DNA from: a virus
DNA length: 30,566 nt
Strand: one strand, 5' to 3'
Virus record (IMG/VR): IMGVR_UViG_3300033155_001088
Coordinates: 1-30,566 of that record
The notes beneath the pieces were generated by a model. It worked only from the letters and a program-made list of their open reading frames with translations. It did not search any database and had not been told where the DNA came from. Shown here piece after piece: positions 4,604-30,295 of this stretch. Positions within the stretch are counted from its first letter, which is position 1. Each line of letters begins with the position of its first letter. The position numbers and the translations under genes were made by a program.

Positions 4604-7600
4604 TGGCTGAACAACTGCTTGATAAAGCGTCATATAGTTTAATTAGAACAAATCCTAAATTAACTGGTAATGTTAAAGTAGTATCTGATGGTACTAATAT
4701 TTACTTGGAATCATTTAGTGCTAATACTAGACTATCATCTCAGAAATTTAAAGCATTTAAAGTTGATGGTACGAGTACCTATGACCAGGATGTTTTTAGA
4801 TTTTTTGATTTTGGTAAATTCCCAGCAGAAGCTGCATATGAGGTATTCCAAGAATATGAGAATACAGCAGTTCTTTCTAATTATGGTAATCAGTATGAGA
4901 TGTTTTATTGTGCAGGGACTAGATCAGTTGCATCTGAAACTTATCCTGAGAGTTTAGGAACATTGGCACCGCTTTGGTTAAATGAACAAATACCTTCGGC
5001 TTTTGTTATTTTTAGATTAGATGATCCAGCTGCTGTTAATAATTATAGAGCATTAACACAAAATGAAAATTTTATTGATGCGCAAACTTCAGAAAATTTT
5101 ACCAAGCAAGTATTAGAAAATTGTACTGCAATTAAAACTTTTGATTTAACTGAAGGTACTGCATTAGGTTCTTATATTAGAAATTATAGAAATCAAGAAA
5201 CATTTCCAGAAGTTCCTCTTAATATTACATGGAGAAAAGATGAGGCAATATTGTGGAATGGAATTTCTTACAAGTACGGTGGCTTTACAAGCTCGGGTAG
5301 TTTTGCTTATGAAGATTTAGTTACTAAGGATGGGACTATAATGGAAGATGATTATTTATTTACACAAGGCTTCCAAAATAATAGCATCTTATTAGCTAAT
5401 TTATTAAACTTGGAGTTTTTATTTGATGATCCTACTGCCGATGAATATTCTATTAACAGATATTTTGGAATGTATGTTAATGAAGTTGAAGAAGGTACAT
5501 TTGATATTTCAGGAGAAGGTTTTTATAAAAATACTGAAAAAACTCAGTTGCCTAAAATAACTACAATAAATGAAGTCTCACAGGATCTTAATACACCATT
5601 TGAAATAACTAATGACCAAGGTATACTTTTATTTTTAGATCCAGCAAAAACTACTACCGTTACAGGTTTGCCTACACCGGAAAGAGTAGATGAAGTAGAA
5701 TCTATTTTTTATGTTAAAGACAAAGAAGATAATTTTCATACAATTAAAAAAGGTTCATTATGGGATAAGAATCAAATAAGACTATTTGATACTAAGGTTG
5801 ATGTTTCTTTATTTGCTGGTTATAAAGAACCAGATACATTTGCAAATGCTAGTATTCTAAGTAGTGCAGGATATGCACAAATGTATATAAAAATTTTAGA
5901 TAATATACAAGATGGTGTTGGAATTGCATTTTATGATGGTGCCGAATTAAGTGGAGAAATATTTGCAAATTCAACATTAGCACCTATACCAGGCAAAGCT
6001 TTTGAAAGATTTTTTAATCCTAATGGAACTACACAAGAAATTGCACGATCAATAACTTCTGCTATAAACAAAGGAATAGATGAAAACGTTAGATTTTTTA
6101 CTGCATCATATAATGATAGCACTGTTTATATTAAATCACGATTTAGTGGATCAAGATTTAATCAATTAAATTTTAAAATTAATGTAGATTATCCAGAAAT
6201 TTTTGATCAAATTAAAACTTATCCAGAAACTAATGAAATTACACCAGGTGCTAATTTTGTTGGTGGTAATAATACTAAGAATAGTTTACTTAAAGTTGAA
6301 AAAGGTGATCAAGATAGATTTATAAAAGGAAACTTTGTACAGACGAAAGGTGGCTTTACTGAAATAGGTGATTGGGTCCCTTATACACAAGAACCTATAT
6401 TTGACGGTTTTGATACTATTATAGGTTATAAGGATATTGATAAATATGTAATCATAACATGCGATGATAATCAGATTATGGTGACTAGGAGTAATCAAGT
6501 TGCTCTTTATTCAGATTATAAGCCTTCATTTGGTAGATTTTCATTTTTTGATGTTAAAGATTTTGATGTTGATTTTTATAGTACTCTTTATAGCCAAGAA
6601 GGTGAATTAAGCTTTGAGTATGCTCAGTATAATCAATCTATAGAAGGTAGTAATCCACCGTCTTATGTAGGAATAAGTCAAAATCCAGAAATACGAAACT
6701 TTTATGATAATGGTGGGTTCTATAATTTAGTTGGATTGTTAAACGATGCAGAAGATCAAAACCCTGATGATGAATATATCCAAAGCGAATACATTAGATT
6801 AGAAGAAAACTTTTTAACTTCACAGGCTGCAATATCTAGAATAGTTCCTTATATAAATAAATGGGCGTGGATTAATGATGGTAAAGATGTAAGAAATCAC
6901 CCTTATAGGTTGGACACAAGTTTAGCTTTTGGTTTAAATAATTTTGCACCATCTAAATATGATAAAGTACAAGAGGCTAGTGGATTTACACATGAGTGGT
7001 ATTACTTATCTGAATTCCCTACATATTTTACAAAAGATGCAATTGAAAATTCATGGAGTTATATAGATAAAGCTCCTGTTGATAATACACCAGAAAATTT
7101 AATTACTGGGCAGGTTTTTGTACCAGGTACATTCCAAAATGTTAATAAGAATTATTTTGATGATTATTTTATTATAGAAAAATTTACTACTGGTGGAATT
7201 ACTGAAATAGATAGACAATTAAGATATGGTAGATTTAGCGGTGGTGACGATCAAAATTTTTCTGAGGCGTTTTTAAGAGGTGTTAGGATAATTGCTAAAG
7301 AGAAAGCAATAGGAAGTGAAAAGCCTGATTTTAATGCACAGTCATTAAGCTATATAACAAATGGCAATTTTAATGATTATAGATTTTCTGCTATCTTAGT
7401 TCCTAATTTAAATGGTACACCTAATAGCCAAATTAAGTTTATAAAAAATGATAAGTGGAAAACTATTGTTATGCTTATTTCAATAGAATATGCATATACA
7501 TGCTCCTCTTATACAAATCCTAACTCTATAGATAGGACTACTTTGTATTCTTTAAATAGTTCGTTTAATGTAAACTCAGATTGTGAGCCTATTAAAATAG

Positions 7601-9303
7601 GTGATAGTTTTGATTATACTGATGGAATCTTAAAAGGTGCAATAAGCTTTAATCAATCAACGTTAAACCCAGGAACACAACTATACACTATTATTGGCCA
7701 ACCTAATCAAGATGGCCAGCTTCCTGATTTTTTAAATGATATTAGAATATTAGAAAATGGTACTTATGGCCAAATTCAGTTTACAGTAGGTGGTATAAAT
7801 TATGTATGCGATGGTATCACTGAAGTTGTTAGTTCTAATAAATTTACGTGTAGCATAGTTTCTGCAAATGGAGTACCGGGTGTTATCTTACCTACACCTA
7901 GTCCTAGTAGTTCACAATTAATACAAGCCACTTACACAATTAAAGATAGTGGATATTTTGAATTTATTAATAGATTAAATGCAGTTGGCTTTGGTGAAAT
8001 ATTTGATGCTGTTAATGAAGGTAATCCTAATATTATTTATGAGACAATTAATGTTGATGGTACACAAGTAAAAAATTCTGATGGTACATTAGCACAAACT
8101 TTTAGTATCACACTAAGAGCACAGTCTGATATACTTAAATCTGTTTATGTAGGCGTTTTACCAGATCCTGCTAAACCAACTGAGTTTAACTTAACTGATG
8201 TTATAGGTTATGATTTATCTTTACAGCCTGATCCTAATGTAACTCCTATTGCTAGACATGCTGGATATTATTCACCTTATGCATTGCCTTTACTTTTCTT
8301 TAGAGATCCTTATATGAATATAGATTTTAATGAAGATGTTACTGGTGGAAATACAGGATCTACTAATATCCCAGACGCTGAATATAAATTAAAGGTATTA
8401 GAATTATGTAAATATAAAAATACTCAATTTCATAGTCAAGATTTAAGATTTGGGCAAATACAAAATTTCTTTTATCATAAAGTAAATGAGCAAGATCCTT
8501 CAACTATTTTAGAGCTTTCTAATGATAGTGCATTTCCTAGTCTCTATCCGCTTATTAACGAAATAGGAATTGATTATAAAGATTTTTATACATTTTCTTC
8601 TAACTGGGAACCATCCTATTTTATTAAAAGTATAGATAAAACTTTAATAGAGCCTATCATAGGTACAAGATCTATGAAAGAAAGAAAGTCATTTTTTGGC
8701 TCTAAATATTTAAAAGTTCCAGAAACTATTATTCTAGAAACATTTCAACCTGACCCTTTTGTAAAAGCTGCAATTAAACAGCCTAGCTTAATTCAAGGAA
8801 CATTTATGTATCAAGATATTGCTTCAGTTACAGTAAATAAGCCCGTAATAAAATCTGCAGGTACCGCTCAGCTTAATGCACTTAAGAAAAAACCGTCTCC
8901 TCCTATAGTAACTTTTTATCTTTTTATCGAAAAGAGATTAATTGAATACTTATTTGAACCTATCAAAAAAGAATTTTTAAAATATGTAAATCCTTTATAT
9001 GGATTTGGTGATTTAGAAACTTTAGATGATGATGTGAGACAATACATTAGAGAAAATATATTAAAGTTATATAAAGTAGAAGAAATTAATTTTTATACTT
9101 TAGCAAGTAGAAATAAGAGTAGTGATACATACACCACGGCAGAGTTAACAGACTTACAAAAGGTAACTTCTGGATTAACTATTAATGAAAATGTTTCATC
9201 AAAAACTTTGAATACTAATCCATTTGATTTAAGGCTAATATATAATAAAAGAACAGGTTTCTCTGAATCATATGGGTTCAGCGTTACTATAGTTAAAAAA
9301 TAA
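4603..9303 (+). CDS. Giant virion structural protein, unknown family (1566 aa)
   Basis: This is the longest gene in the window. The ATG at 4603 follows an A-rich leader (gtgaaagataaATG) whose last bases form one arm of an inverted repeat (4565-4603). The protein is rich in Asn, Asp, Phe, Tyr and Ile, has no signal peptide or membrane segment, and looks like a multi-domain beta-rich structural protein. It contains few Cys residues and no catalytic motif that I can recognise. Its position between the FN3-like protein and the collagen-like fibre, with only 9 bases before the next ATG, argues that it is part of the baseplate or tail-fibre apparatus. A promoter-like element (9234-9248) lies inside its last codons. 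I do not recognise a family, so the specific role is open. Confidence 0.55.
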   Translation: MAEQLLDKASYSLIRTNPKLTGNVKVVSDGTNIYLESFSANTRLSSQKFKAFKVDGTSTYDQDVFRFFDFGKFPAEAAYEVFQEYENTAVLSNYGNQYEMFYCAGTRSVASETYPESLGTLAPLWLNEQIPSAFVIFRLDDPAAVNNYRALTQNENFIDAQTSENFTKQVLENCTAIKTFDLTEGTALGSYIRNYRNQETFPEVPLNITWRKDEAILWNGISYKYGGFTSSGSFAYEDLVTKDGTIMEDDYLFTQGFQNNSILLANLLNLEFLFDDPTADEYSINRYFGMYVNEVEEGTFDISGEGFYKNTEKTQLPKITTINEVSQDLNTPFEITNDQGILLFLDPAKTTTVTGLPTPERVDEVESIFYVKDKEDNFHTIKKGSLWDKNQIRLFDTKVDVSLFAGYKEPDTFANASILSSAGYAQMYIKILDNIQDGVGIAFYDGAELSGEIFANSTLAPIPGKAFERFFNPNGTTQEIARSITSAINKGIDENVRFFTASYNDSTVYIKSRFSGSRFNQLNFKINVDYPEIFDQIKTYPETNEITPGANFVGGNNTKNSLLKVEKGDQDRFIKGNFVQTKGGFTEIGDWVPYTQEPIFDGFDTIIGYKDIDKYVIITCDDNQIMVTRSNQVALYSDYKPSFGRFSFFDVKDFDVDFYSTLYSQEGELSFEYAQYNQSIEGSNPPSYVGISQNPEIRNFYDNGGFYNLVGLLNDAEDQNPDDEYIQSEYIRLEENFLTSQAAISRIVPYINKWAWINDGKDVRNHPYRLDTSLAFGLNNFAPSKYDKVQEASGFTHEWYYLSEFPTYFTKDAIENSWSYIDKAPVDNTPENLITGQVFVPGTFQNVNKNYFDDYFIIEKFTTGGITEIDRQLRYGRFSGGDDQNFSEAFLRGVRIIAKEKAIGSEKPDFNAQSLSYITNGNFNDYRFSAILVPNLNGTPNSQIKFIKNDKWKTIVMLISIEYAYTCSSYTNPNSIDRTTLYSLNSSFNVNSDCEPIKIGDSFDYTDGILKGAISFNQSTLNPGTQLYTIIGQPNQDGQLPDFLNDIRILENGTYGQIQFTVGGINYVCDGITEVVSSNKFTCSIVSANGVPGVILPTPSPSSSQLIQATYTIKDSGYFEFINRLNAVGFGEIFDAVNEGNPNIIYETINVDGTQVKNSDGTLAQTFSITLRAQSDILKSVYVGVLPDPAKPTEFNLTDVIGYDLSLQPDPNVTPIARHAGYYSPYALPLLFFRDPYMNIDFNEDVTGGNTGSTNIPDAEYKLKVLELCKYKNTQFHSQDLRFGQIQNFFYHKVNEQDPSTILELSNDSAFPSLYPLINEIGIDYKDFYTFSSNWEPSYFIKSIDKTLIEPIIGTRSMKERKSFFGSKYLKVPETIILETFQPDPFVKAAIKQPSLIQGTFMYQDIASVTVNKPVIKSAGTAQLNALKKKPSPPIVTFYLFIEKRLIEYLFEPIKKEFLKYVNPLYGFGDLETLDDDVRQYIRENILKLYKVEEINFYTLASRNKSSDTYTTAELTDLQKVTSGLTINENVSSKTLNTNPFDLRLIYNKRTGFSESYGFSVTIVKK
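9234..9248 (+). promoter_or_regulatory. Promoter-like element GCTAATATATAATAA inside the end of the 1566-aa gene
   Basis: Identical over 15 bases to 25694-25708. It lies 79 bases before the ATG of the collagen-like fibre gene, inside the coding sequence of the preceding gene. It could give the fibre gene its own late transcript. Chance occurrence in AT-rich DNA cannot be excluded. Confidence 0.35.
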
Positions 9304-16106: not shown

Positions 16107-16463
16107 ATGAAAACCTTTAAAGACTATTTACAAGAATCTTATAATGAATCAGTTGATATTCAAAATTTATTAAATGAGTCTCATGATTTAACAGAAGAAC
16201 AAGAAGCTGCAATTGATGCAACTGTAGATAGAATAATGGAAGCACAAAAAGCTGGTAAGAATTTAGAAGATTGTGTTGAAGAAATTATTAACGAAGGAGT
16301 TTTAGGTTCTATCTTTGGTGGTCTTACAGGTTTTGCATTAGGTAAGACTATAGGTAAAGCAGTTGCTAAAGTATTAGGTGTTACTAAAGGAGCTCTTTAT
16401 GATTTATTAACCTCACGTCTTGTAGGTGCTGCATTAGGTGCAGTTATCGGCAAGAGAATATAA
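16107..16463 (+). CDS. Small protein with capsid-targeting-like N-terminus and glycine-zipper C-terminus (118 aa)
   Basis: The N-terminus MKTFKDYLQES fits the capsid-targeting pattern of T4 internal head proteins, with a possible gp21-type cut after E10 (L-Q-E|S). Further L/I-x-E sites are E24 (L-N-E|S), E45 (I-M-E|A) and E63 (I-N-E|G). Residues 11-63 are acidic and helical. Residues 64-118 are strikingly different: Gly/Ala/Ile/Leu rich with G71-G75-G79-G83 and G107-G111-G115 spacing, a glycine zipper typical of membrane-inserting helices, ending in KRI. Processing at E63 would release a 55-residue hydrophobic basic peptide. A promoter-like element lies at 16079-16093. It is probably a head internal or core protein; membrane activity is inference. 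Confidence 0.6.
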   Translation: MKTFKDYLQESYNESVDIQNLLNESHDLTEEQEAAIDATVDRIMEAQKAGKNLEDCVEEIINEGVLGSIFGGLTGFALGKTIGKAVAKVLGVTKGALYDLLTSRLVGAALGAVIGKRI

Positions 16464-21900: not shown

Positions 21901-23598
21901 ATGAAGTCAATCAAAAAGTTTTCTGCAATTTCTGCTAAAGATCAACCGATCACAGAGTCTGCAAAAGTAAGCCAAGAAGCTGTTGAAGAATTGATCAAAA
22001 AGATTGGTTTTGACAGTATAGAAGAATTAAAGAAAGAAAAAGATCTTCTTTCTAAACTCGAATCATTAGCTAAAAGTTCTGCTAAAAAAGATGACATCTC
22101 TGAAGATGAAATCGAAGAAGATAGAGCTGAGGATATCGAAGACGAAGTAAAAGCTAAAGGTACTCCTAAATCTTTAGAAGGTACAGAGGATAAAGAAGGT
22201 GAAGAGGAAGTAATTCCATCTGATTCTGAAGTAGCTGAAGAGGAAGAGGTAGAAGCTGAAGAAGAAGTAGAAGAGGATAGAGCTGAAGATATCGAAGATG
22301 AAGTATTAGCTATCGGCAAAACTAAATCTTTAGAAGATAAAGAAGGTAAAGAAGTTTCACCAGATCAAGAAATTACAAAAGAGGTTCCAGCCGAAGCACC
22401 AGAAGTTGAGGATAAAGGTGGTGTAGATGTTGAAGATGATGATTCTGAAAATGAAGAAGTTGAAACTCCAAAAGCTACTCGTAGAATAATGGCCTTTGAA
22501 GATTTTGTAAAAGAAAAGGAAGAAACTATTAATAAGAATATTAAATATCACGATGATGATGAAGAGCCAGAAGATTACGCTGTTCCTGTAGCTGCATCTG
22601 CTGATCCATTAGCTGAAGCAAAAGTTAATGAAGATGACGATGATGATGAAGAAAAAGGTTCTGATGATGAAAGAAAAGGTGATGAGCTAGAAGATAAAGG
22701 CGATAAGAAAGTTGATTCTGAAGATGACAAAGAAAAAGCAGACCATTATAAAGGAGCTGTTAAATCTGATGATAAAGAAATTGATGCTTTAAAGAAAGAT
22801 GTTAAATACGACAAAGAAGAAGAGGAAGATGCTGAAAAGAATGAATCTACTATTATGTCTTTTTCTACTTTTGTAAATGAAGCTTATGACAGAGTTGTAC
22901 TAGGTGGAAATAAAGGTGATAAATCTAAAACACATGATGGTGAAGATTACGAAGATGAGGATGAAGTAGAGGAAAAGTATGACAGAGTTGTACTAGGTGG
23001 AAATAAAGGTGATAAATCTAAAACTCACGATGGCGAGGATTATGAAGAAGAAGATGAAAAGGATGAAGCCGTAGATGAAACTGTAGGTCAAGTAATTACT
23101 AAAGTTGAAGGCGATGAAATCGCTGATGAAGTTGCTGGAGATGATGGAATTGCAATTCCTGCAATTAAAGGTGACGGACCAGAAACTGCTGCAGGTATTG
23201 CAGGAGATATGATGGATATGGGTAAACCTAAATCTATTGAAGGTAAAGGTAAAGAACTAATTACTAAAGATCAAGAAATTACTGAAGTAGTTCCTGATGA
23301 AGCTAATGATCCTAAAGATGCAACTGTAGTTGTAAAAGAAGAGGAAGAAGTTTTACCTGATGATTCAATTGCTGAAAAGTTTAGAAAGATTGCTGCAAAT
23401 AAAATTGGCAAGCTTAATGAAAAAGAAATCAAATCAGCTGATGAATTTAAAGAATATGCAATGTCAATTCTAAAAGATGCATTCGGTGAAGATTTTGATG
23501 AAGAAAAGGCAACTAAAACTGCTGATGGTTTATTAGACAAATATGGTGAAGACTATGGAGCAATGGTTGGAGCTTTACAATCCACAATGGGATCATAA
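21901..23598 (+). CDS. Highly acidic repetitive protein, possible head core/scaffold or internal protein (565 aa)
   Basis: Glu, Asp and Lys dominate. The N-terminus MKSIKKFSAISAKDQPITES has the Met-Lys start of the capsid-targeting-like group and an I-T-E|S site. Two more motif copies are internal: MAFEDFVKE at residue 197 and MSFSTFVNEA at 319. Repeats include DRAEDIEDEV units 52 residues apart, a near-perfect 31-residue tandem repeat (22885-23070) and recurring KSLEG...DQEIT..VP segments. The last ~75 residues differ: helical and compact (FRKIAANKIGKL, then DEFKEYAMSILKDAFGEDFD), like a conserved assembly domain. Acidic, protease-site-rich proteins are typical of T4 prohead cores (gp22, gp67). 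The role is inferred; no orthology to those genes was verified. Confidence 0.6.
   Translation: MKSIKKFSAISAKDQPITESAKVSQEAVEELIKKIGFDSIEELKKEKDLLSKLESLAKSSAKKDDISEDEIEEDRAEDIEDEVKAKGTPKSLEGTEDKEGEEEVIPSDSEVAEEEEVEAEEEVEEDRAEDIEDEVLAIGKTKSLEDKEGKEVSPDQEITKEVPAEAPEVEDKGGVDVEDDDSENEEVETPKATRRIMAFEDFVKEKEETINKNIKYHDDDEEPEDYAVPVAASADPLAEAKVNEDDDDDEEKGSDDERKGDELEDKGDKKVDSEDDKEKADHYKGAVKSDDKEIDALKKDVKYDKEEEEDAEKNESTIMSFSTFVNEAYDRVVLGGNKGDKSKTHDGEDYEDEDEVEEKYDRVVLGGNKGDKSKTHDGEDYEEEDEKDEAVDETVGQVITKVEGDEIADEVAGDDGIAIPAIKGDGPETAAGIAGDMMDMGKPKSIEGKGKELITKDQEITEVVPDEANDPKDATVVVKEEEEVLPDDSIAEKFRKIAANKIGKLNEKEIKSADEFKEYAMSILKDAFGEDFDEEKATKTADGLLDKYGEDYGAMVGALQSTMGS
22117..22336 (+). repeat. Degenerate repeat units encoding DRAEDIEDEV...KSLE
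   Basis: Codons starting at 22117 and again at 22273 (156 bases later) both encode EDRAEDIEDEV, followed by a KxKxLE-type segment (TPKSLEG and TKSLED). A third, looser relative with KPKSIEG...DQEIT lies near 23224-23283. The repeats make most of the N-terminal half of this acidic protein low-complexity. Confidence 0.75.
22885..23070 (+). repeat. Two-copy 93-base tandem repeat inside the acidic protein
   Basis: Copies at 22885-22977 and 22978-23070 encode two 31-residue units that both begin YDRVVLGGNKGDKSKTHDGE and then diverge slightly in acidic residues. The DNA copies differ at several third-codon positions, so the duplication is not brand new, yet the first 22 residues are unchanged, which suggests selection on the protein sequence. 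The unit follows directly after the internal MSFSTFVNEA motif, at its predicted cut site. Confidence 0.9.
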
Positions 23599-23608
23599 TA
23601 AATAAAAC

Positions 23609-24880
23609 ATGAAACACGTAAAATTGTTTGAACAATGGCTGGCCGACAAAAGCCAGCCATTTCTTTTTGAAGGTGGTGCAGCTGGCCACATGGCTCATCC
23701 TTTTGATGATAAAGACTTGACCTTTGGCGATTTTAAAGCAATGATTGATGCTGGTCTTAGAGGTCAGTTAAGCTTTGAAGAAGATCCTACGGAAAAGACT
23801 GATGGCCAAAACTTATTTGTAACTATACAGGATGGTAAAGTAAAATTTGCCAGAAATAAAGGCCAAATGGCAAATCCTATAGATCTTAATGGAATTATAG
23901 GTATGTTTACAGGACATGCATCAAAATTAGTAGAAGATACTTATATCTTTGCTGCTAAAGATTTAGATAAGCTATTAAGAAAACTTCCACCAGCAGACCA
24001 AGAAAAATATTTTAAGAATGGAAAGGATTTTATGAATATGGAATTAATCTATTCATTAAACCCAAATGTTATTCATTATGATACTGATGTTATACAATTT
24101 CATGGAATAAAAGAAACAGATGGAAAAGGTAATATCATAGGTACAAATAATAAACCTGCTAAAGAAATAACAAACATACTTCAAAAACTAAAATCTGATA
24201 TTGGTAAAACATTTAAAATTATTCCTCCTAGAGTAATTCAATTACAAAGAGACTTAGATTTTACTGCAAACAAGAAAAGATTCATTAATCAAGTTAATGC
24301 TTTAGAAAAAAGATATGGCTTAAACGACGGAGATGAAGTTTCAAGATATCATGAAATGTGGTGGAGAGAATTAATAGATAAAGAATTTCCTAAATTATCT
24401 CAGGATGTAAAAGAAGGTTTACTTAGAAGATGGGCATACGGTGACAAGAAGACTTTAAACATGAGATCTTTAGCCAAACAAGTTGGACCTAAAGAGGCTG
24501 CACTAGTTAAAAAGTTTGATAAAGAAGATGTTGCCAAAAAGTATAAAGAAAACATTAGACCTTTTGAAGATCTGTTTTTAGAGTTAGGTTCTATTATTAT
24601 GAAAAATGCTTCTAACTTTTTAGCAGCTAATCCATCAGGGGAAGCCCAAAGGTTAAGAAGAGATATAGAAGCTCAAGCAAGTAAGATTAAAAAGACAGGT
24701 GGGGTAGAACAAATTAAAAAGGTTGAAGCTGAACTTGCAAGGTTAAGTAGAATTGGTGGTATAGAATCAATATTTCCAACTGAAGGTATTGTATTTAAAT
24801 ATAAAGGTAAGATTTATAAATTAACTGGTACCTTTGCTGCAATTAACCAATTATTAGGCCTAATAAAATACGGGAGATAA
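23609..24880 (+). CDS. Ligase-superfamily nucleotidyltransferase with capsid-targeting-like N-terminus (423 aa)
   Basis: Motifs of the covalent nucleotidyltransferase (DNA/RNA ligase and capping enzyme) superfamily are present in order: motif I EKTDGQN with candidate lysine K63, followed by FARNKGQM; motif III-like MNMELIY with E145; motif IV EGIVFK with E392; motif V-like KIYKL with K401/K404. A long helical insert separates III and IV. The N-terminus MKHVKLFEQWLADKSQPFLFEGG resembles a capsid-targeting leader with a possible cut after E21 (L-F-E|G). An alternative ATG is at 23690, but the A-rich leader (aataaaacATG) supports the first one. A terminator-like hairpin sits within codons 9-18. 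It likely joins or adenylates nucleic acid; the substrate is unknown. Confidence 0.7.
   Translation: MKHVKLFEQWLADKSQPFLFEGGAAGHMAHPFDDKDLTFGDFKAMIDAGLRGQLSFEEDPTEKTDGQNLFVTIQDGKVKFARNKGQMANPIDLNGIIGMFTGHASKLVEDTYIFAAKDLDKLLRKLPPADQEKYFKNGKDFMNMELIYSLNPNVIHYDTDVIQFHGIKETDGKGNIIGTNNKPAKEITNILQKLKSDIGKTFKIIPPRVIQLQRDLDFTANKKRFINQVNALEKRYGLNDGDEVSRYHEMWWRELIDKEFPKLSQDVKEGLLRRWAYGDKKTLNMRSLAKQVGPKEAALVKKFDKEDVAKKYKENIRPFEDLFLELGSIIMKNASNFLAANPSGEAQRLRRDIEAQASKIKKTGGVEQIKKVEAELARLSRIGGIESIFPTEGIVFKYKGKIYKLTGTFAAINQLLGLIKYGR
23634..23668 (+). terminator. Terminator-like hairpin inside the start of the ligase-like gene
   Basis: Perfect 10-base stem AATGGCTGGC (23634-23643) and GCCAGCCATT (23652-23661) with an 8-base loop, followed by TTCTTTTT. 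The stem is unusually GC-rich for this genome. It starts 25 bases after the ATG of the 423-aa gene, so it may attenuate transcription between the abundant acidic protein and the downstream enzyme. Whether it terminates is not known. Confidence 0.6.
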
Positions 24881-24959: not shown

Positions 24960-25133
24960 ATGGACTATTTACATACATTTGAATCTCTTAATGAATCTAG
25001 AGAATTAGATACCATTAAAAAGATGGTATTGGACTATGCTGAAAAGAAAGGCAAATCCAAATGGAAAGATTTACAAAATTTAATCGTTAAGCATAAAGGC
25101 TTGGATCCTAATGATAGATCAAACTGGGTATGA
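24960..25133 (+). CDS. Small protein with capsid-targeting-like N-terminus (57 aa)
   Basis: ATG at 24960 after an A-rich leader (aaaacaacaATG), TGA at 25131. The N-terminus MDYLHTFESLNESREL has an aromatic/hydrophobic pattern and an L-N-E|S site at E12 like the other capsid-targeting-like proteins. The remainder is helical and Lys-rich (KKMVLDYAEKKGKSKWKDL), ending with DPNDRSNWV. Codon use and the tight spacing to the next small genes (7 bases) support a real gene. Function unknown; a head-packaged peptide is possible. Confidence 0.6.
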   Translation: MDYLHTFESLNESRELDTIKKMVLDYAEKKGKSKWKDLQNLIVKHKGLDPNDRSNWV

Positions 25134-25140
25134 TAAAAAC

Positions 25141-25281
25141 ATGGGTAAACATGGTAGAGGTCAAAACTCACATGGACTACTTATGAGACCTACAAAGAAA
25201 GATCCTCGCTATTTAGAAAAAACACCAGATAACAAGTTTTATGTCGTAAAGATATGGGACGGTAAATCTAAATTGGCATAA
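25141..25281 (+). CDS. Very small basic protein (46 aa)
   Basis: ATG at 25141 and TAA at 25279-25281, one base before the next ATG. The sequence MGKHGRGQNSHGLLMRPTKK is Gly/His/Arg/Lys rich, followed by a short strand with FYVVKIWDGKSKLA. It lies between two other small genes on the same strand in a compact run. An alternative overlapping frame from 25130 gives only 18 codons and was rejected. No family is recognised. A nucleic-acid-binding role would fit the charge but is not shown. Confidence 0.5.
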   Translation: MGKHGRGQNSHGLLMRPTKKDPRYLEKTPDNKFYVVKIWDGKSKLA

Positions 25282-25282
25282 T

Positions 25283-25606
25283 ATGAAAAACTTTAATGAA
25301 TTTATAAATGAAGCGATAAATTATAAAGATCGTAGCGGTAAGTCATTTAAGATAAAAGGAATAAATTTTATTTACACAGATAGGGGTAGATTTTATGGAA
25401 CGTCTCTATATGATGTAGCTAAAACTGCAAATGTAAATAAAAGATCTAAGATAGGTTTTGACGATACTGAAAAACTTTTAAAGTCATTAGGAGTTAAAGA
25501 AAGCCTGCCTATGTCTTATGGCCCTGGTAGATTAGATAGAATTTGTAAGGAATTAACCAGAAAAGGTATAGTATGTGACCACGGCGATATTATGGACGTA
25601 TCATAA
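25283..25606 (+). CDS. Small protein with capsid-targeting-like N-terminus (107 aa)
   Basis: MKNFNEFINEA at the start is one of the best matches in the window to the M-K-x-F-x-x-F-I-x-E motif, with the expected cut after E10 (I-N-E|A). The mature part would be a compact, basic alpha/beta domain (FKIKGINFIYTDRG, then KLLKSLGVKESLP, then RICKELTRKGIVCDHGD). The gene starts one base after the preceding stop and is followed by a likely terminator at 25647. No enzyme motif was recognised. I infer a small head internal protein. Confidence 0.65.
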   Translation: MKNFNEFINEAINYKDRSGKSFKIKGINFIYTDRGRFYGTSLYDVAKTANVNKRSKIGFDDTEKLLKSLGVKESLPMSYGPGRLDRICKELTRKGIVCDHGDIMDVS

Positions 25607-25727: not shown

Positions 25728-28700
25728 ATGAAAGAGTTAACAAACATATATAAAGAAGTAGGGCAACAATTTGTCAATGATCTTTTTAAAGATTATTTAC
25801 TGGTAACAGAAAAATTATCAGGCTCATCATTTTCTTTTGAGAGACATGGGGATGAAATAAGATTTTTTAAAGGCAGTAATAAAATGCCAATTAATATAGT
25901 GGATAGAACATTAATGATGTACTATGAACCTGCTATCCAATACATACTTAAACAAACTGAAGGCCATATAGAAGATCTGCCTGAGCATTGGAGATTTTGC
26001 TTTCAGTATTTTGTTCATAATCAACCTGGTCCAATTAGGTATGACAATCTTCCTAAAAATAATTTAGTACTTACTCATATCCAAGTAAGAAATCCAAAAG
26101 GTAAAATTGCTAAAGTAATTGAAGATCCTAGAGTTCTTAGAGATTGGGCATCTGCATTTCAGGTAACCCCTCTTATTCCAATATTTAGTGGATATTTAAA
26201 GGAAGAACAAAAAAGAAAGATTAGAGAATTTCTTTCAACGCCAAAAGAAGATCAATTAGAAGTTTTTGGTACAAGTTCTTTTGCTAGGTATTTAATAAAT
26301 TGCTTAAATCCAACAATCCAACAAACAACATTACAGAATGATTTAGATAAACCTATAGATTCTATTATCTTTAAATTTTATAGACCAGGTACTAATCAAA
26401 CCTTTACTGCTAAAATGATTGATCCTTATACACAATCATTAATGAAAGATAAAGAACCTGTTGATTTAAGGAGAGCACCTGCAGATATTAATGAAATTCT
26501 TTTATTGGATATTTTAGCCTTTATAGAAGAAAGAGGTTTGCGTGCTGGTGAATTATTAACCGACACGGCACAAGAAAGATATGTTGAATTAATTAATAAT
26601 CTTTTTAATGATTATACTACCAAAAGAGGTTCTGATTTAAAAAAGTTAGATATTCAAAAAGCTGATTTTGCAAAAGGTCCTGAATTTAATCTTAATGTTG
26701 ATTTAATTAAAAACAACAGGACTAGAGAAATACTACAATCTTCAGAATCTTTACAAAATCTATATAAGATAATGTTAGGTTCATTAAGAAAGAAAAGAAG
26801 CACTAAAAGAGTAGGTGCTGTTATGACCTCATCAGTAGTACAAGACTTTAATAAATTAGTTTCTAAAATTAGTAATGCTATTAATAAAGAAACATCAGGA
26901 GAATTTAAAACATTTGGTGAATATTTAAATAATAAAGTAACTGAAGAAGTTAATCATAAAGATTTAGAAGATCTTGTTGTTGAAGAAAAGGTTTTAAATT
27001 ATAATGATTTTATTAATCTAGGTAAGGTTGTTATAGAGGCTAATGTCGAAGATCAAAAATTTAAAAATCCAGAAACAGGAAGACAAGTAAAAGTTTCTTC
27101 TGCTTTAGGTTACGATAAATCTACACCGGCCTATCAAAAGGCAAAGGAAATAATTGGAGATAAAGAATCAACCGAAGAAACAGAATCAGGTTTATCAGAT
27201 TCTTTAAAGAAAAAATTTACAGAGAAGAGAGTTGAAAATATAAAGAAAGATTTTGATAGAATTGCTTTTGAATCACCAGAAGATAGAAAAGATTTTGAAG
27301 CTGGTTTTGAAAAAGTATTAAATGGAGAAAAACTTTCAAAAGAAGAAGCTGAAACTGTAGGTAAGTATGCTAAGCTTAGTGATTCTAAAGGTAAGCTAAA
27401 AATATACTTTGCATCTAGTTCAGCTGGAGAATTTAGACAAGGTGGTAGAGAAAAGGTTATGGATCTTTCTGATAAGGATGGATCTGGTGTAAAGGAATTG
27501 ACTGATTTAGGATTAGAGGTAACCTCAGCTTCTACTGTTGATGGTGGAATTAAACCTAAGATTGGTGGAAAGGATATTAATCCTAATAAAATATCTGGAG
27601 GTAAAACATATAAGCCTAAAGTTGATGTTAAGAAAAATGAGAATGGGGAGATTGAAGAAATTACGATGGGATCAACAAAAATTAAAAGGCTTAAGAAACC
27701 AGATCAAGAAAAATTAACTGAAGGTATATTAGAAGCATTTAAAGAACAGAACCCAGACTTAAATGATAAAGAAGTAAAAAGATTAGTTGACAGAACAAAT
27801 AGAGCAATTGATAGACATAATAAAAATTTAGGTAAATGGGAAAAGTTAAATGATGTTGAAATGATTGAAACAGTTCCAGGTTTAAATGATTTACCACAAA
27901 AGGAACGTTCTGAAAAAATACAAAAAGAATATCCTAAAGTAATCTCACAAAAGATGAGAGATCTAATAGGTGACAATCCTACTCCTAAAGAAAGAGAAGT
28001 TTTAGAAGAGATTGAAAAATTAAGTGATATTGAATCTGTTGAAGATTTTGATAATGCTACTATTGAAGTACTTAGAAAAATGGATGACATAGAATCTATA
28101 AGAAAAGGTAGTGCTGACTTGGCAGAATCATTTGCTTATATGTCAATGAATAAGAGAGGATATCGAACTGAATTGCCTGCTGGAGAAAACTTTCCAGTTG
28201 CAGATGTTATATGTTTAGGTGGTGATGTTGACTTAGACCCAGATGATCCTGACTATGCAAAGAAAGTTGCAATGCAAGGTTTAGGATTAGCCGTAAACCT
28301 TGAAACTATGGGTGGCATATCAGTTAAGAAAGATGGTGGTGCAGCCTCTGCTCTAAAAAGCAAAATTGGAGAATCTCAATTTTATAATAAAGAAACTGGA
28401 AATAGGCTAGACGAATTAGCCGATAATCATAATAATTTTATGGGTACACTGAAAGAACCAACTACACCTGAGACAATTAAGAAAGGTAATGAGCTTTTAG
28501 ATAAACAAGAAGCATGGGCAATAGAAAATGGAATTATAGATGAAGATAAGCTTCCACTTAAATATGGAGATAGAACTCCTGAACAGTGGGCAGAAGATAC
28601 TATTAAAGAATGGGAGAAAAAAGGCAGAGGTCCATTTTGTGATTTTCAAAAGGATGCATTAATAGGACATTGTAGAGCATGTTTATTAGTAGCTGAAATT

Positions 28701-28955
28701 CATAATGGAGATTTGGAAGAACAGTCTTATGGTAATATAAATGTATCTACATCAAAGAAAGATGGTGGTGTACATATTACTGATGGCGTTACTAATGCAT
28801 CTTTAATGAAACCTCAACCTAACCCTGGTTTTAAATTTGCAAAAGGAAAAGGTCCTGATGGTTGTACTGTTGTAAGACCTAATGCAGTATATGCAGCAAA
28901 CCTAAAGCATGCAGATTTTGATCCAGAGACAAATAGGTTTAAAATGGCAAAGTAA
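25728..28955 (+). CDS. Large multidomain protein with degenerate ligase-like N-terminal domain (1075 aa)
   Basis: Residues ~20-235 resemble an Rnl2-like RNA ligase domain: motif I EKLSGSSFSF with K29; motif III-like RFCFQYF at 89-95, where the usual Glu is Gln; motif IV-like DSIIFKF at 211-217, with Asp-Ser for Glu-Gly; and AKMID as motif V. Activity is therefore uncertain. Residues 392-440 hold two capsid-targeting-like segments (FKTFGEYLNN and LNYNDFINL) with E-E and I-E-A sites, so the chain may be cut in two. Residues 440-800 are charged and helical. Residues ~808-900 form a distinct alpha/beta domain (ELPAGENFPVADVI, then SVKKDGGAAS) that vaguely recalls PD-(D/E)XK nucleases. Whole-protein function is unknown. 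Confidence 0.6.
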   Translation: MKELTNIYKEVGQQFVNDLFKDYLLVTEKLSGSSFSFERHGDEIRFFKGSNKMPINIVDRTLMMYYEPAIQYILKQTEGHIEDLPEHWRFCFQYFVHNQPGPIRYDNLPKNNLVLTHIQVRNPKGKIAKVIEDPRVLRDWASAFQVTPLIPIFSGYLKEEQKRKIREFLSTPKEDQLEVFGTSSFARYLINCLNPTIQQTTLQNDLDKPIDSIIFKFYRPGTNQTFTAKMIDPYTQSLMKDKEPVDLRRAPADINEILLLDILAFIEERGLRAGELLTDTAQERYVELINNLFNDYTTKRGSDLKKLDIQKADFAKGPEFNLNVDLIKNNRTREILQSSESLQNLYKIMLGSLRKKRSTKRVGAVMTSSVVQDFNKLVSKISNAINKETSGEFKTFGEYLNNKVTEEVNHKDLEDLVVEEKVLNYNDFINLGKVVIEANVEDQKFKNPETGRQVKVSSALGYDKSTPAYQKAKEIIGDKESTEETESGLSDSLKKKFTEKRVENIKKDFDRIAFESPEDRKDFEAGFEKVLNGEKLSKEEAETVGKYAKLSDSKGKLKIYFASSSAGEFRQGGREKVMDLSDKDGSGVKELTDLGLEVTSASTVDGGIKPKIGGKDINPNKISGGKTYKPKVDVKKNENGEIEEITMGSTKIKRLKKPDQEKLTEGILEAFKEQNPDLNDKEVKRLVDRTNRAIDRHNKNLGKWEKLNDVEMIETVPGLNDLPQKERSEKIQKEYPKVISQKMRDLIGDNPTPKEREVLEEIEKLSDIESVEDFDNATIEVLRKMDDIESIRKGSADLAESFAYMSMNKRGYRTELPAGENFPVADVICLGGDVDLDPDDPDYAKKVAMQGLGLAVNLETMGGISVKKDGGAASALKSKIGESQFYNKETGNRLDELADNHNNFMGTLKEPTTPETIKKGNELLDKQEAWAIENGIIDEDKLPLKYGDRTPEQWAEDTIKEWEKKGRGPFCDFQKDALIGHCRACLLVAEIHNGDLEEQSYGNINVSTSKKDGGVHITDGVTNASLMKPQPNPGFKFAKGKGPDGCTVVRPNAVYAANLKHADFDPETNRFKMAK

Positions 28956-28966
28956 ATATATAAGGT

Positions 28967-30295
28967 ATGGAAAACATTAATGATTTAAATAACTTTCTAA
29001 ATGAAAAGAAAGTGGTAGTAAAAAGAAGATACACTGAAGCATATCCAGCAAAAAATATTTCTACTAACGCTAGAGTTAGGAGTGTAATATTAGATGCTAT
29101 TTCAGACGGTCATATTACTGAAGAAGAAATGACTAGAATTCTTACTGAACTCCAAGCTAACAAAAGATGGCTAGGCAGAAATAAAACTTTATTTAATATC
29201 AGTGAAGATCAATCAGGTATAAAAACTTATTCATTATCACCTTATGGGCAAAGAGTTAAAAATAGAACTCATAACACTGTTATTAATGAAGCTTTATCTG
29301 TACCTCATAAAGGTAGAGGTAAAAAGCCAGTTAATATGTTTGTTGGTAGATTCCAACCTTTTACATTAGGGCATGTTAAAGTATTTGAAAAAATGTATAA
29401 AGAAAACGGTTTACCTGTTGTTGTATTTCTTGTTAGGGGAAAGGGTGATTCAGATAAAAGACCATTTGATGAGGCTATGCAACAGGCTATGTTTACAAAG
29501 ATGGCTAAACAATATCCATTTTTGGAAACTGCTATCGTTGTTCCTAATGGAGCTATTGATACAATGTTTGCAGCTGCAAGACCTGCATATGAACCTATGA
29601 TGTGGGGATTTGGTACTGATAGGAAAAAATCTTATGGTGCTATGATTAACAAGCAATCATATAGAGACCAGCTTGGAGTAGATCCACAGTTTAAAGGTTT
29701 TGAAATTTTTAGGACTGATGATAATATTTCTGCATCTAAAGTTCGTAATGCATTAAAGATAGACGATGAAAAAACTTTTAAGAAAATGACTCCTAAAAGT
29801 ATTCATAAATTTTATAAACCTTTACAAGATATAATACAACCAATAAAAGAAAGCAATGATATGAAAAATTTAAAATCTTTATCCGACTTTAATATTAATG
29901 AAGCAAAATTTGATAAAAGAAAACTGTTAAAGGCATTAGGTAAAGCTGATGATGCATTTATTCAATTAGGAGATGGAACTGAATTAATAATTTACAATCC
30001 TAAATCAAATAATAAAGATAATGCTGATATGTGGCATAGCGATGTTGTTTTTGCAGTAGATCAAGATGGAGAAGAGCATGAAGTTAAATATAAAGACATT
30101 GCTGATCTTAAGGAATCTAAGTTAAATGAAGAGTATATTGAATTAATGCCAAATGTTGAAGCTGCATTAGAACAAATTGCAGAAGATTGGATTCAGTGGA
30201 AAGCTGGCCCAATGACAGAGTTATCTGATATTAAACCTGCAAGAAAAGAGCTACTAAATTATTGTACTGCATTTTTAAAGAAATTTATTAAGTAA
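28967..30295 (+). CDS. NMNAT/cytidylyltransferase-family enzyme with capsid-targeting-like segments (442 aa)
   Basis: The nucleotidyltransferase core spans residues ~122-292. GRFQPFTLGH (127-136) is the T/HxGH nucleotide-binding motif of NMNAT and related enzymes, and ISASKVRNAL (254-263) is the ISxTxxR-type second motif with R260. Family enzymes transfer AMP or CMP to phosphorylated substrates; NMNAT members make NAD from NMN and ATP. Residues 1-120 form an extra helical domain. The N-terminus MENINDLNNFLNEK (L-N-E|K) and an internal MKNLKSLSDFNINEA at 299-313 resemble capsid-targeting sequences. The C-terminal 144 residues look like a separate module. The core fold is confident; the NMN substrate is inferred. 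Confidence 0.75.
   Translation: MENINDLNNFLNEKKVVVKRRYTEAYPAKNISTNARVRSVILDAISDGHITEEEMTRILTELQANKRWLGRNKTLFNISEDQSGIKTYSLSPYGQRVKNRTHNTVINEALSVPHKGRGKKPVNMFVGRFQPFTLGHVKVFEKMYKENGLPVVVFLVRGKGDSDKRPFDEAMQQAMFTKMAKQYPFLETAIVVPNGAIDTMFAAARPAYEPMMWGFGTDRKKSYGAMINKQSYRDQLGVDPQFKGFEIFRTDDNISASKVRNALKIDDEKTFKKMTPKSIHKFYKPLQDIIQPIKESNDMKNLKSLSDFNINEAKFDKRKLLKALGKADDAFIQLGDGTELIIYNPKSNNKDNADMWHSDVVFAVDQDGEEHEVKYKDIADLKESKLNEEYIELMPNVEAALEQIAEDWIQWKAGPMTELSDIKPARKELLNYCTAFLKKFIK

Follow-up and report, generated by a model that had tools for sequence, protein, structure and literature searches.

What does a phage gain from a protein in which a degenerate RNA-ligase domain is followed by a larger C-terminal part of unfamiliar type? 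The window considered here (the whole stretch of DNA that was analysed, 30.6 kb of a 31.6 kb record of an uncultured T4-like marine phage) encodes such a protein of 1075 amino acids at 25728..28955 on the + strand, and the fusion reading frame described in the initial annotation is genuine. The UvsW-type helicase of the window is closest to that of megaphage LR756500 (57%), followed by Tenacibaculum, Lak and T4-type phages. Tail-type genes and a primase-like gene, both assigned by eye, are found along with the helicase.

The 1075-aa protein is composed of two fused modules, a constant, dead carrier of RNA-ligase fold (residues 1-390) and a hypervariable, horizontally exchanged payload (residues 435-1075). 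A flexible linker between them carries two T4-type capsid-targeting-like (CTS-like) segments. The reading that we favour, and hold to be rather probable, is that the protein is an arms-race effector packaged in the capsid, with the pseudo-ligase as its carrier, and in this comparable to the internal proteins of T4.

The carrier and the exchange of the C-terminal cassette

Residues 1-240 (25728..26447, +) show the RNA-ligase nucleotidyltransferase fold in AlphaFold2 model 1, which was built on a 59-sequence alignment (pLDDT 82). Foldseek matched the model to T4 Rnl2 (2hvr, E=1e-5), and the best RNA ligase by VIA-align was 6vt1_A with Z 11.3 over 182 residues at 3.3 Å. A ligase-like fold had been proposed for residues 1-235 and is borne out by model and structural matches; the degenerate motifs K29-L-S-G, Q93 and D211-S212 are exactly as initially annotated. 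Across the family to which this domain belongs, here called ligase B, the fold of RNA ligases is kept, while the nucleophile lysine of motif I and the acidic residues of motifs III and IV are not. The lysine, still present as K29-LSG in the window protein, is replaced by N, D, N and D in megaphages LR756500, 502, 504 and 501, respectively, and by Q in the L193-L195 group of the family alignment. Motif III is Q, D or N (Q93 in the window clade), and motif IV mostly lacks EG (D211-S212 in the window clade), which some relatives such as L193 retain. Since family members have N, D or Q in place of the catalytic lysine, ligase B is a pseudo-ligase, catalytically dead as judged by motif loss. K29 had been considered as a sign of activity, and this was dropped after the wider alignment with N, D or Q at that position in relatives. 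A helical part (residues 254-390; 26487..26897, +) completes the carrier and is kept with ligase B in the megaphages.

The C-terminal cassette (residues 435-1075; 27030..28952, +) belongs to class A in the window and to classes B, C or D in relatives. Its exchange can be followed at the DNA level. Loci L001 and L004 are 94.7-98.7% identical up to position 7301, corresponding to codon 434; from this codon to positions 9214/8815 there is no DNA match, and the similarity then resumes at 95.9%, 14 bp before the end of the stop codon. At the protein level, phages with 97-99% identity in the ligase part have C-termini that are only 20-50% identical or cannot be aligned. The opposite combination is found as well, with ligase parts of 61% identity next to payloads of 95% (L004 and L032) or 92% identity (L010 and L030). 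The same exchange occurred between L150 and L197, where the payload is a separate gene directly downstream and the upstream DNA is 98.2% identical. Assembly errors are an unlikely cause, because these contigs were obtained independently, from different metagenomes, and both combinations of the exchanged modules are found repeatedly. From these comparisons it appears close to certain that the whole of residues 435-1075 is exchangeable as a cassette with sharp edges, and equally close to certain is the architecture of carrier plus payload. The breakpoint falls inside the second targeting-like segment, which is itself conserved across the clade. A hypervariable payload at a constant locus is also a hallmark of T4-type internal proteins. 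What makes the locus unusual is such a clean C-terminal swap behind a conserved dead-enzyme carrier in uncultured T4-like phages.

The payload domain

A separate domain in the far C-terminal part had been placed at about residue 808. The domain exists, with its start at about residue 720 (residues about 720-1075; 27885..28952, +): a boundary at 808 cuts through it, and the helix with the invariant E800 belongs to it. This delimitation is based on the AlphaFold2 models and on an alignment of 46 payload sequences with 18-91% identity to the window protein, in which E800, P817, D826, S865-x-K867, G871, A873, S874, K879, N993, N1003 and G1020 are invariant. Class B payloads exhibit the same motif order, with a Glu in NDxGE, then P-x-x-SN-x(3)-VD and then SSKAGxGGTPS. 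When class B was compared with classes A, C and D by hhalign, the P..SN...D block alone was aligned, and weakly (E=0.047; E=0.18 in another comparison). Judged by motif order and spacing, class B likely shares ancestry with the other classes.

AlphaFold2 model 2 of residues 700-1075 reached a pLDDT of 84.7 and a pTM of 0.77. The strand around SxK differs between models 1 and 2, and the topology in model 1 is compatible with the alpha-beta-beta-beta-alpha-beta core of PD-(D/E)XK enzymes. A test for this superfamily had been proposed in the initial annotation. The order E, D, xxK is indeed present, E800 and D826 being invariant. Where the core motif should have its acidic residue, however, 46/46 sequences have Ser (S865-x-K867), and class B likewise has SxK. 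Due to this substitution throughout, membership in the superfamily is not claimed, despite the resembling motif order. The structural search from which a name for the domain had been expected did not identify its fold, as neither Foldseek (best E 0.79) nor VIA-align matched the payload model to a solved fold in the PDB. A four-helix bundle of large clostridial toxins (VIA Z 7.8, 80 residues) was rejected as a chance match, since such Z values are common for helical bundles.

Sequence searches of Pfam, PHROGs, NCBIfam, PADLOC and the PDB returned nothing convincing for the payload. Among bacteria, 37 pattern hits were obtained and 0 of them was confirmed as a homologue by tblastn. Large relatives that have no class A/C/D module gave no match to the payload profile, as expected. 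A payload family for which no entry was found in Pfam, PHROGs, NCBIfam or the PDB is of interest in its own right.

The same data bear on a somewhat unlikely alternative, according to which the payload is a non-catalytic, IPI-like inhibitor that binds and blocks variable restriction or defence enzymes of the host after injection, its conserved residues serving folding or binding. In T4, Ip1-3 are hypervariable, are injected and inhibit type IV restriction enzymes (PMC12373910; PMC3012670), each blocking one enzyme subtype (PMC12373910). The missing match to any solved enzyme fold and the missing acidic residue of (D/E)xK would also suit an inhibitor. However, 12 residues are invariant in 46 sequences, several of them charged or of catalytic type (E, D, SxK, K), which is more typical of an enzyme, and the domain is far bigger than the T4 internal proteins.

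Partner genes and capsid-targeting-like segments

Related loci were collected by a search seeded on the gene of a 423-aa protein, ligase A (23609..24880, +). This intact ligase-type nucleotidyltransferase contains the motifs EKTDG, ARNK, MELIY, EGIVF and YKLTG, and every ligase motif is also kept in Microcystis phage Mel-JY01, LR756500 and LR756508. Ligase B was present in 72/72 loci whose flanking DNA extends far enough beyond the 423-aa gene on its downstream side, always with ligase A upstream, so that the co-occurrence asked for in the initial annotation is found throughout. By profile comparison, the relation between the two ligases is distant and weak (hhalign probability 28%). A HIGH-family nucleotidyltransferase of the GRFQPFT type was detected in 47/47 long loci. 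In the window it is the 442-aa protein at 28967..30295 (+) with the motif GRFQPFTLGH, an NMNAT/cytidylyltransferase-like protein that matches PF01467 (E=7.5e-6); the closest named family of its HIGH domain is the NMN adenylyltransferase PRK01153 (E=1.3e-6, below the curated cut-off). Small upstream ORFs, considered as immunity partners, are by inspection missing from many loci and do not track the payload class; this candidate was rejected.

By its motifs, the pair of a catalytic ligase A and a non-catalytic ligase B is well supported. Of the two earlier readings of the ligase genes, a nucleic-acid end-processing pair and a catalytic/regulatory pair, the latter is the better supported, as it agrees with motifs intact in A and lost in B, but the set was incomplete, as the NMNAT-like gene at 28967-30295 is also a partner. 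Ligase B is fused to the NMNAT-like enzyme in L063, L066-L090 and LR756500, and ligase A in Mel-JY01 and LR756508. L193 encodes a tripartite fusion with the NMNAT-like domain between pseudo-ligase and payload. Campylobacter phage CP20 encodes a HIGH enzyme (PF01467 E=3.6e-5) in one chain with a different, intact ligase (RNA_ligase E=0.03). Separate fusions in differing orders argue for one shared process, and because other phages have the NMNAT-like gene joined to one ligase or the other, ligase A, ligase B and the NMNAT-like gene are a conserved set. The recurrence of these fusions raises the question why phages couple ligation with NAD-type nucleotidyl transfer.

The textbook CTSs of T4 are N-terminal. 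The two targeting-like segments noticed earlier within residues 392-440 are present and conserved across the clade, and they are internal rather than N-terminal. The first, FKTFGEYLNNKVTEE (residues 393-407; 26904..26948, +), is comparable to MKTFKDYLQE of 16107-16463, and the second, KVLNYNDFINLGKVVIEA (residues 421-438; 26988..27041, +), contains a possible prohead-protease site and the cassette breakpoint at codon 434. Both lie in the low-confidence linker of the AlphaFold2 model (pLDDT 40-53) and are kept in nearly all other distinct clade sequences, with 2 clear exceptions: one ORF is truncated at a contig end, and in another sequence the second segment lies outside the aligned stretch. 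CTS-like segments further occur at the N-termini of a 107-aa and a 118-aa protein, close to the beginning of ligase A (423 aa) and of the 442-aa protein, again at about residue 303 of the latter, and inside a 565-aa acidic protein. The 107-aa protein (25283..25606, +) begins with MKNFNEFINEA and weakly matches the internal head protein phrog_2667 (E=0.18). In six cassette/CTS genes the motif was counted 7 times compared to 0.8 expected (0/1000 shuffles), a comparison that is partly circular as the pattern was written post hoc. In the tripartite L193 protein, CTS-like segments are located at both domain junctions.

A gp21-type prohead protease (PF03420, over the cut-off) was detected in the relatives G001-G003, Mel-JY01 and LR756500; the search covered large relatives instead of the window record, which is a fragment. 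In cyanophage S-SCSM1 the NMNAT-like ORF91 was found in virions by mass spectrometry (PMC9602691). ORF91, which begins with MKSFLQFLKEA, and the preceding ORF90 are annotated as virion proteins. The cytidylyltransferase of S-CREM2 was detected in virions by the same technique, and the authors note possible carry-over or contamination (PMC10665884). Taken from the targeting-like motifs and these distant NMNAT-like virion homologues, packaging of the 1075-aa protein in the capsid is probable.

A further explanation, in our estimate unlikely, dispenses with packaging. Ligase A, pseudo-ligase B and the NMNAT-like enzyme would only repair RNA by mending tRNAs that nucleases of the host cut during infection, the C-terminal module would be an RNA-end-processing partner matched to differing host nucleases, and the CTS-like segments would be chance occurrences or relics of junctions. 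The Rnl2-type fold of ligase B is in accordance with this proposal, as is Xanthomonas phage X1, where an apparent ligase/HIGH-NTase cluster adjoins, by eye, a Pol-beta-type protein; Pol-beta nucleotidyltransferases (RlaP) accompany phage RNA ligases (PMC7824862). The recurrence of CTS-like segments where domains or genes of the cassette meet speaks against it, and so do the distant NMNAT-like homologues that have such a segment at the N-terminus and are recorded, together with a neighbour, as virion proteins. The payload could also be directed at rival phages or mobile elements, for instance as a superinfection exclusion nuclease that is set free inside the cell when it is cut off the pseudo-ligase. 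This would fit the rapid cassette exchange between related phages, the nuclease-like motif order and the likeness to polymorphic toxins, in which the carrier is constant and the C-terminus varies (PMC5576092, PMC3482391), but is quite improbable. There is no immunity gene, and the next gene, 11 bp downstream, is the NMNAT-like gene, which all long loci contain irrespective of the payload class.

Proposed working and comparison with known systems

For the favoured packaged effector the following sequence of events can be proposed. The cassette proteins would be synthesised late and taken up by the prohead by means of their targeting segments. There a gp21-type protease may cut the linker and release pseudo-ligase and payload, both to be injected along with the DNA. 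Rosetta-stone fusions and motif conservation suggest that pseudo-ligase, ligase A and the NMNAT-like enzyme then form an early module for RNA repair or for nucleotide/NAD supply, with the pseudo-ligase as its regulatory or RNA-holding subunit. The swapping of cassettes points towards a payload, with its invariant E/D/SxK resembling PD-(D/E)XK, that acts as effector against a variable host target, e.g. a defence system or host nucleic acid. More tentatively, polymorphic capsid effectors of aquatic T4-like phages may form a class not recognised so far, in which a dead RNA ligase is the constant carrier, the linker is cleavable by the prohead protease, payloads of a new E/D/SxK fold are swapped as cassettes to match host defences, and ligase and NMNAT are co-injected.

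Several known systems share single traits with this locus. The fold of residues 1-240 is that of the T4 RNA ligase 2 (RnlB) family and of phage RNA-repair modules, in which respect the partner ligase A holds all motifs. In contrast, the nucleophile and the acidic residues of the motifs have been lost across the ligase B family, and its fusion partner is either an unrelated payload or an NMNAT-like domain. Polyvalent or injected proteins such as P1 DarA/DarB are likewise large multidomain proteins thought to be packaged in the head and injected against host immunity (PMC9503650), but have no detected domains in common with the 1075-aa protein. The MuF polymorphic toxins of temperate phages also combine a constant phage carrier domain with an exchangeable C-terminal domain. 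The present protein differs by its T4-like context and its pseudo-ligase carrier and has neither an immunity gene nor a MuF domain, none being detected in it by Pfam search.

Cyanophage S-SCSM1 ORF91 and S-CREM2 ORF154 are virion-associated HIGH-family nucleotidyltransferases like the one encoded here, the former with an N-terminal CTS-like segment. The cyanophages examined differ in that no ligase B was seen at the NMNAT-like locus and identity to the window clade is <31%. In several cyanophages the NMNAT-like gene adjoins a variable protein with a D...SxK motif, which is short and was given no weight.

The closest parallel is provided by IPI, IPII and IPIII of T4 and their hypervariable locus. 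The internal proteins of T4 are injected, serve defence and are diverse, with the CTS alone in common, and even a nuclease was shown to be packageable along with T4 DNA (PMC3012670). Common to both systems are a hypervariable payload at a fixed locus, a constant sorting signal, here the putative one of the CTS-like segments, and the expected cleavage by the prohead protease and injection. The system described here, for which packaging is proposed from the motifs, differs by internal signals, a pseudo-RNA-ligase carrier of 390 aa, a 640-aa payload with enzyme-like invariants and the ligase/NMNAT cassette. It is best seen as of the internal-head-protein kind, with carrier and payload family as the new elements. 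If the protein is packaged and injected, the arms race known from T4 internal proteins would extend to a large family of enzyme-like payloads, which would point towards many uncharacterised counter-defence activities.

Genes preceding the pseudo-ligase ORF

A very acidic protein of 565 aa (window 21901-23598) carries the CTS-like segments MAFEDFVKEKEE and MSFSTFVNEAYD as well as a YDRVVLGGNKGDKSKTHDGEDYE repeat. Its relatives range in size from 409 to 594 aa, and a function as scaffold or core protein is possible. Upstream of the 1075-aa ORF, window positions 24960-25281 hold the disrupted counterpart of a 122-aa CTS-type gene that is intact in locus L004 (5182-5550). Here, the reading frame begins with MDYLHTFESLNES and ends at a stop after DRSNWV, the remainder of the gene running on in a different frame.

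Payload homologues in other contexts

Homologues of the payload were found as standalone proteins in other phages (loci L105-L119 and L136-L146). Many of them share the N-terminal motif W.YRVNDGMPD...H, part exceed 1400 aa, and together they constitute a large, unannotated family. In a 1126-aa protein of another locus (L191:1057-4434), a class-B payload is preceded by an N-terminal repeat region (YPRLFE...GWGSNSERYKRKR.WQMA) occupying the position of the pseudo-ligase.

Nucleotidyltransferase neighbours and a fusion

The gene adjoining the NMNAT/cytidylyltransferase differs from phage to phage in the cyanophages S-SM2, S-SCSM1, S-BM3 and Sf-FS3 and in Xanthomonas phage X1 (L210, L211, L215, L216, L212). 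A D...SxK motif is frequent in these neighbours (for example SDVILKL..GISLKK; ADIYV..GVSLKK; GDIFII..GVSIKAG), which may represent a variable payload of the same kind as that of the window. In Campylobacter phage CP20, the 503-aa protein QAU04763.1 (L213:2975-4486), annotated as hypothetical, joins an intact ligase-type domain (motifs EKYDG, FVEF and EGYVL) and a HIGH-family nucleotidyltransferase in one chain.
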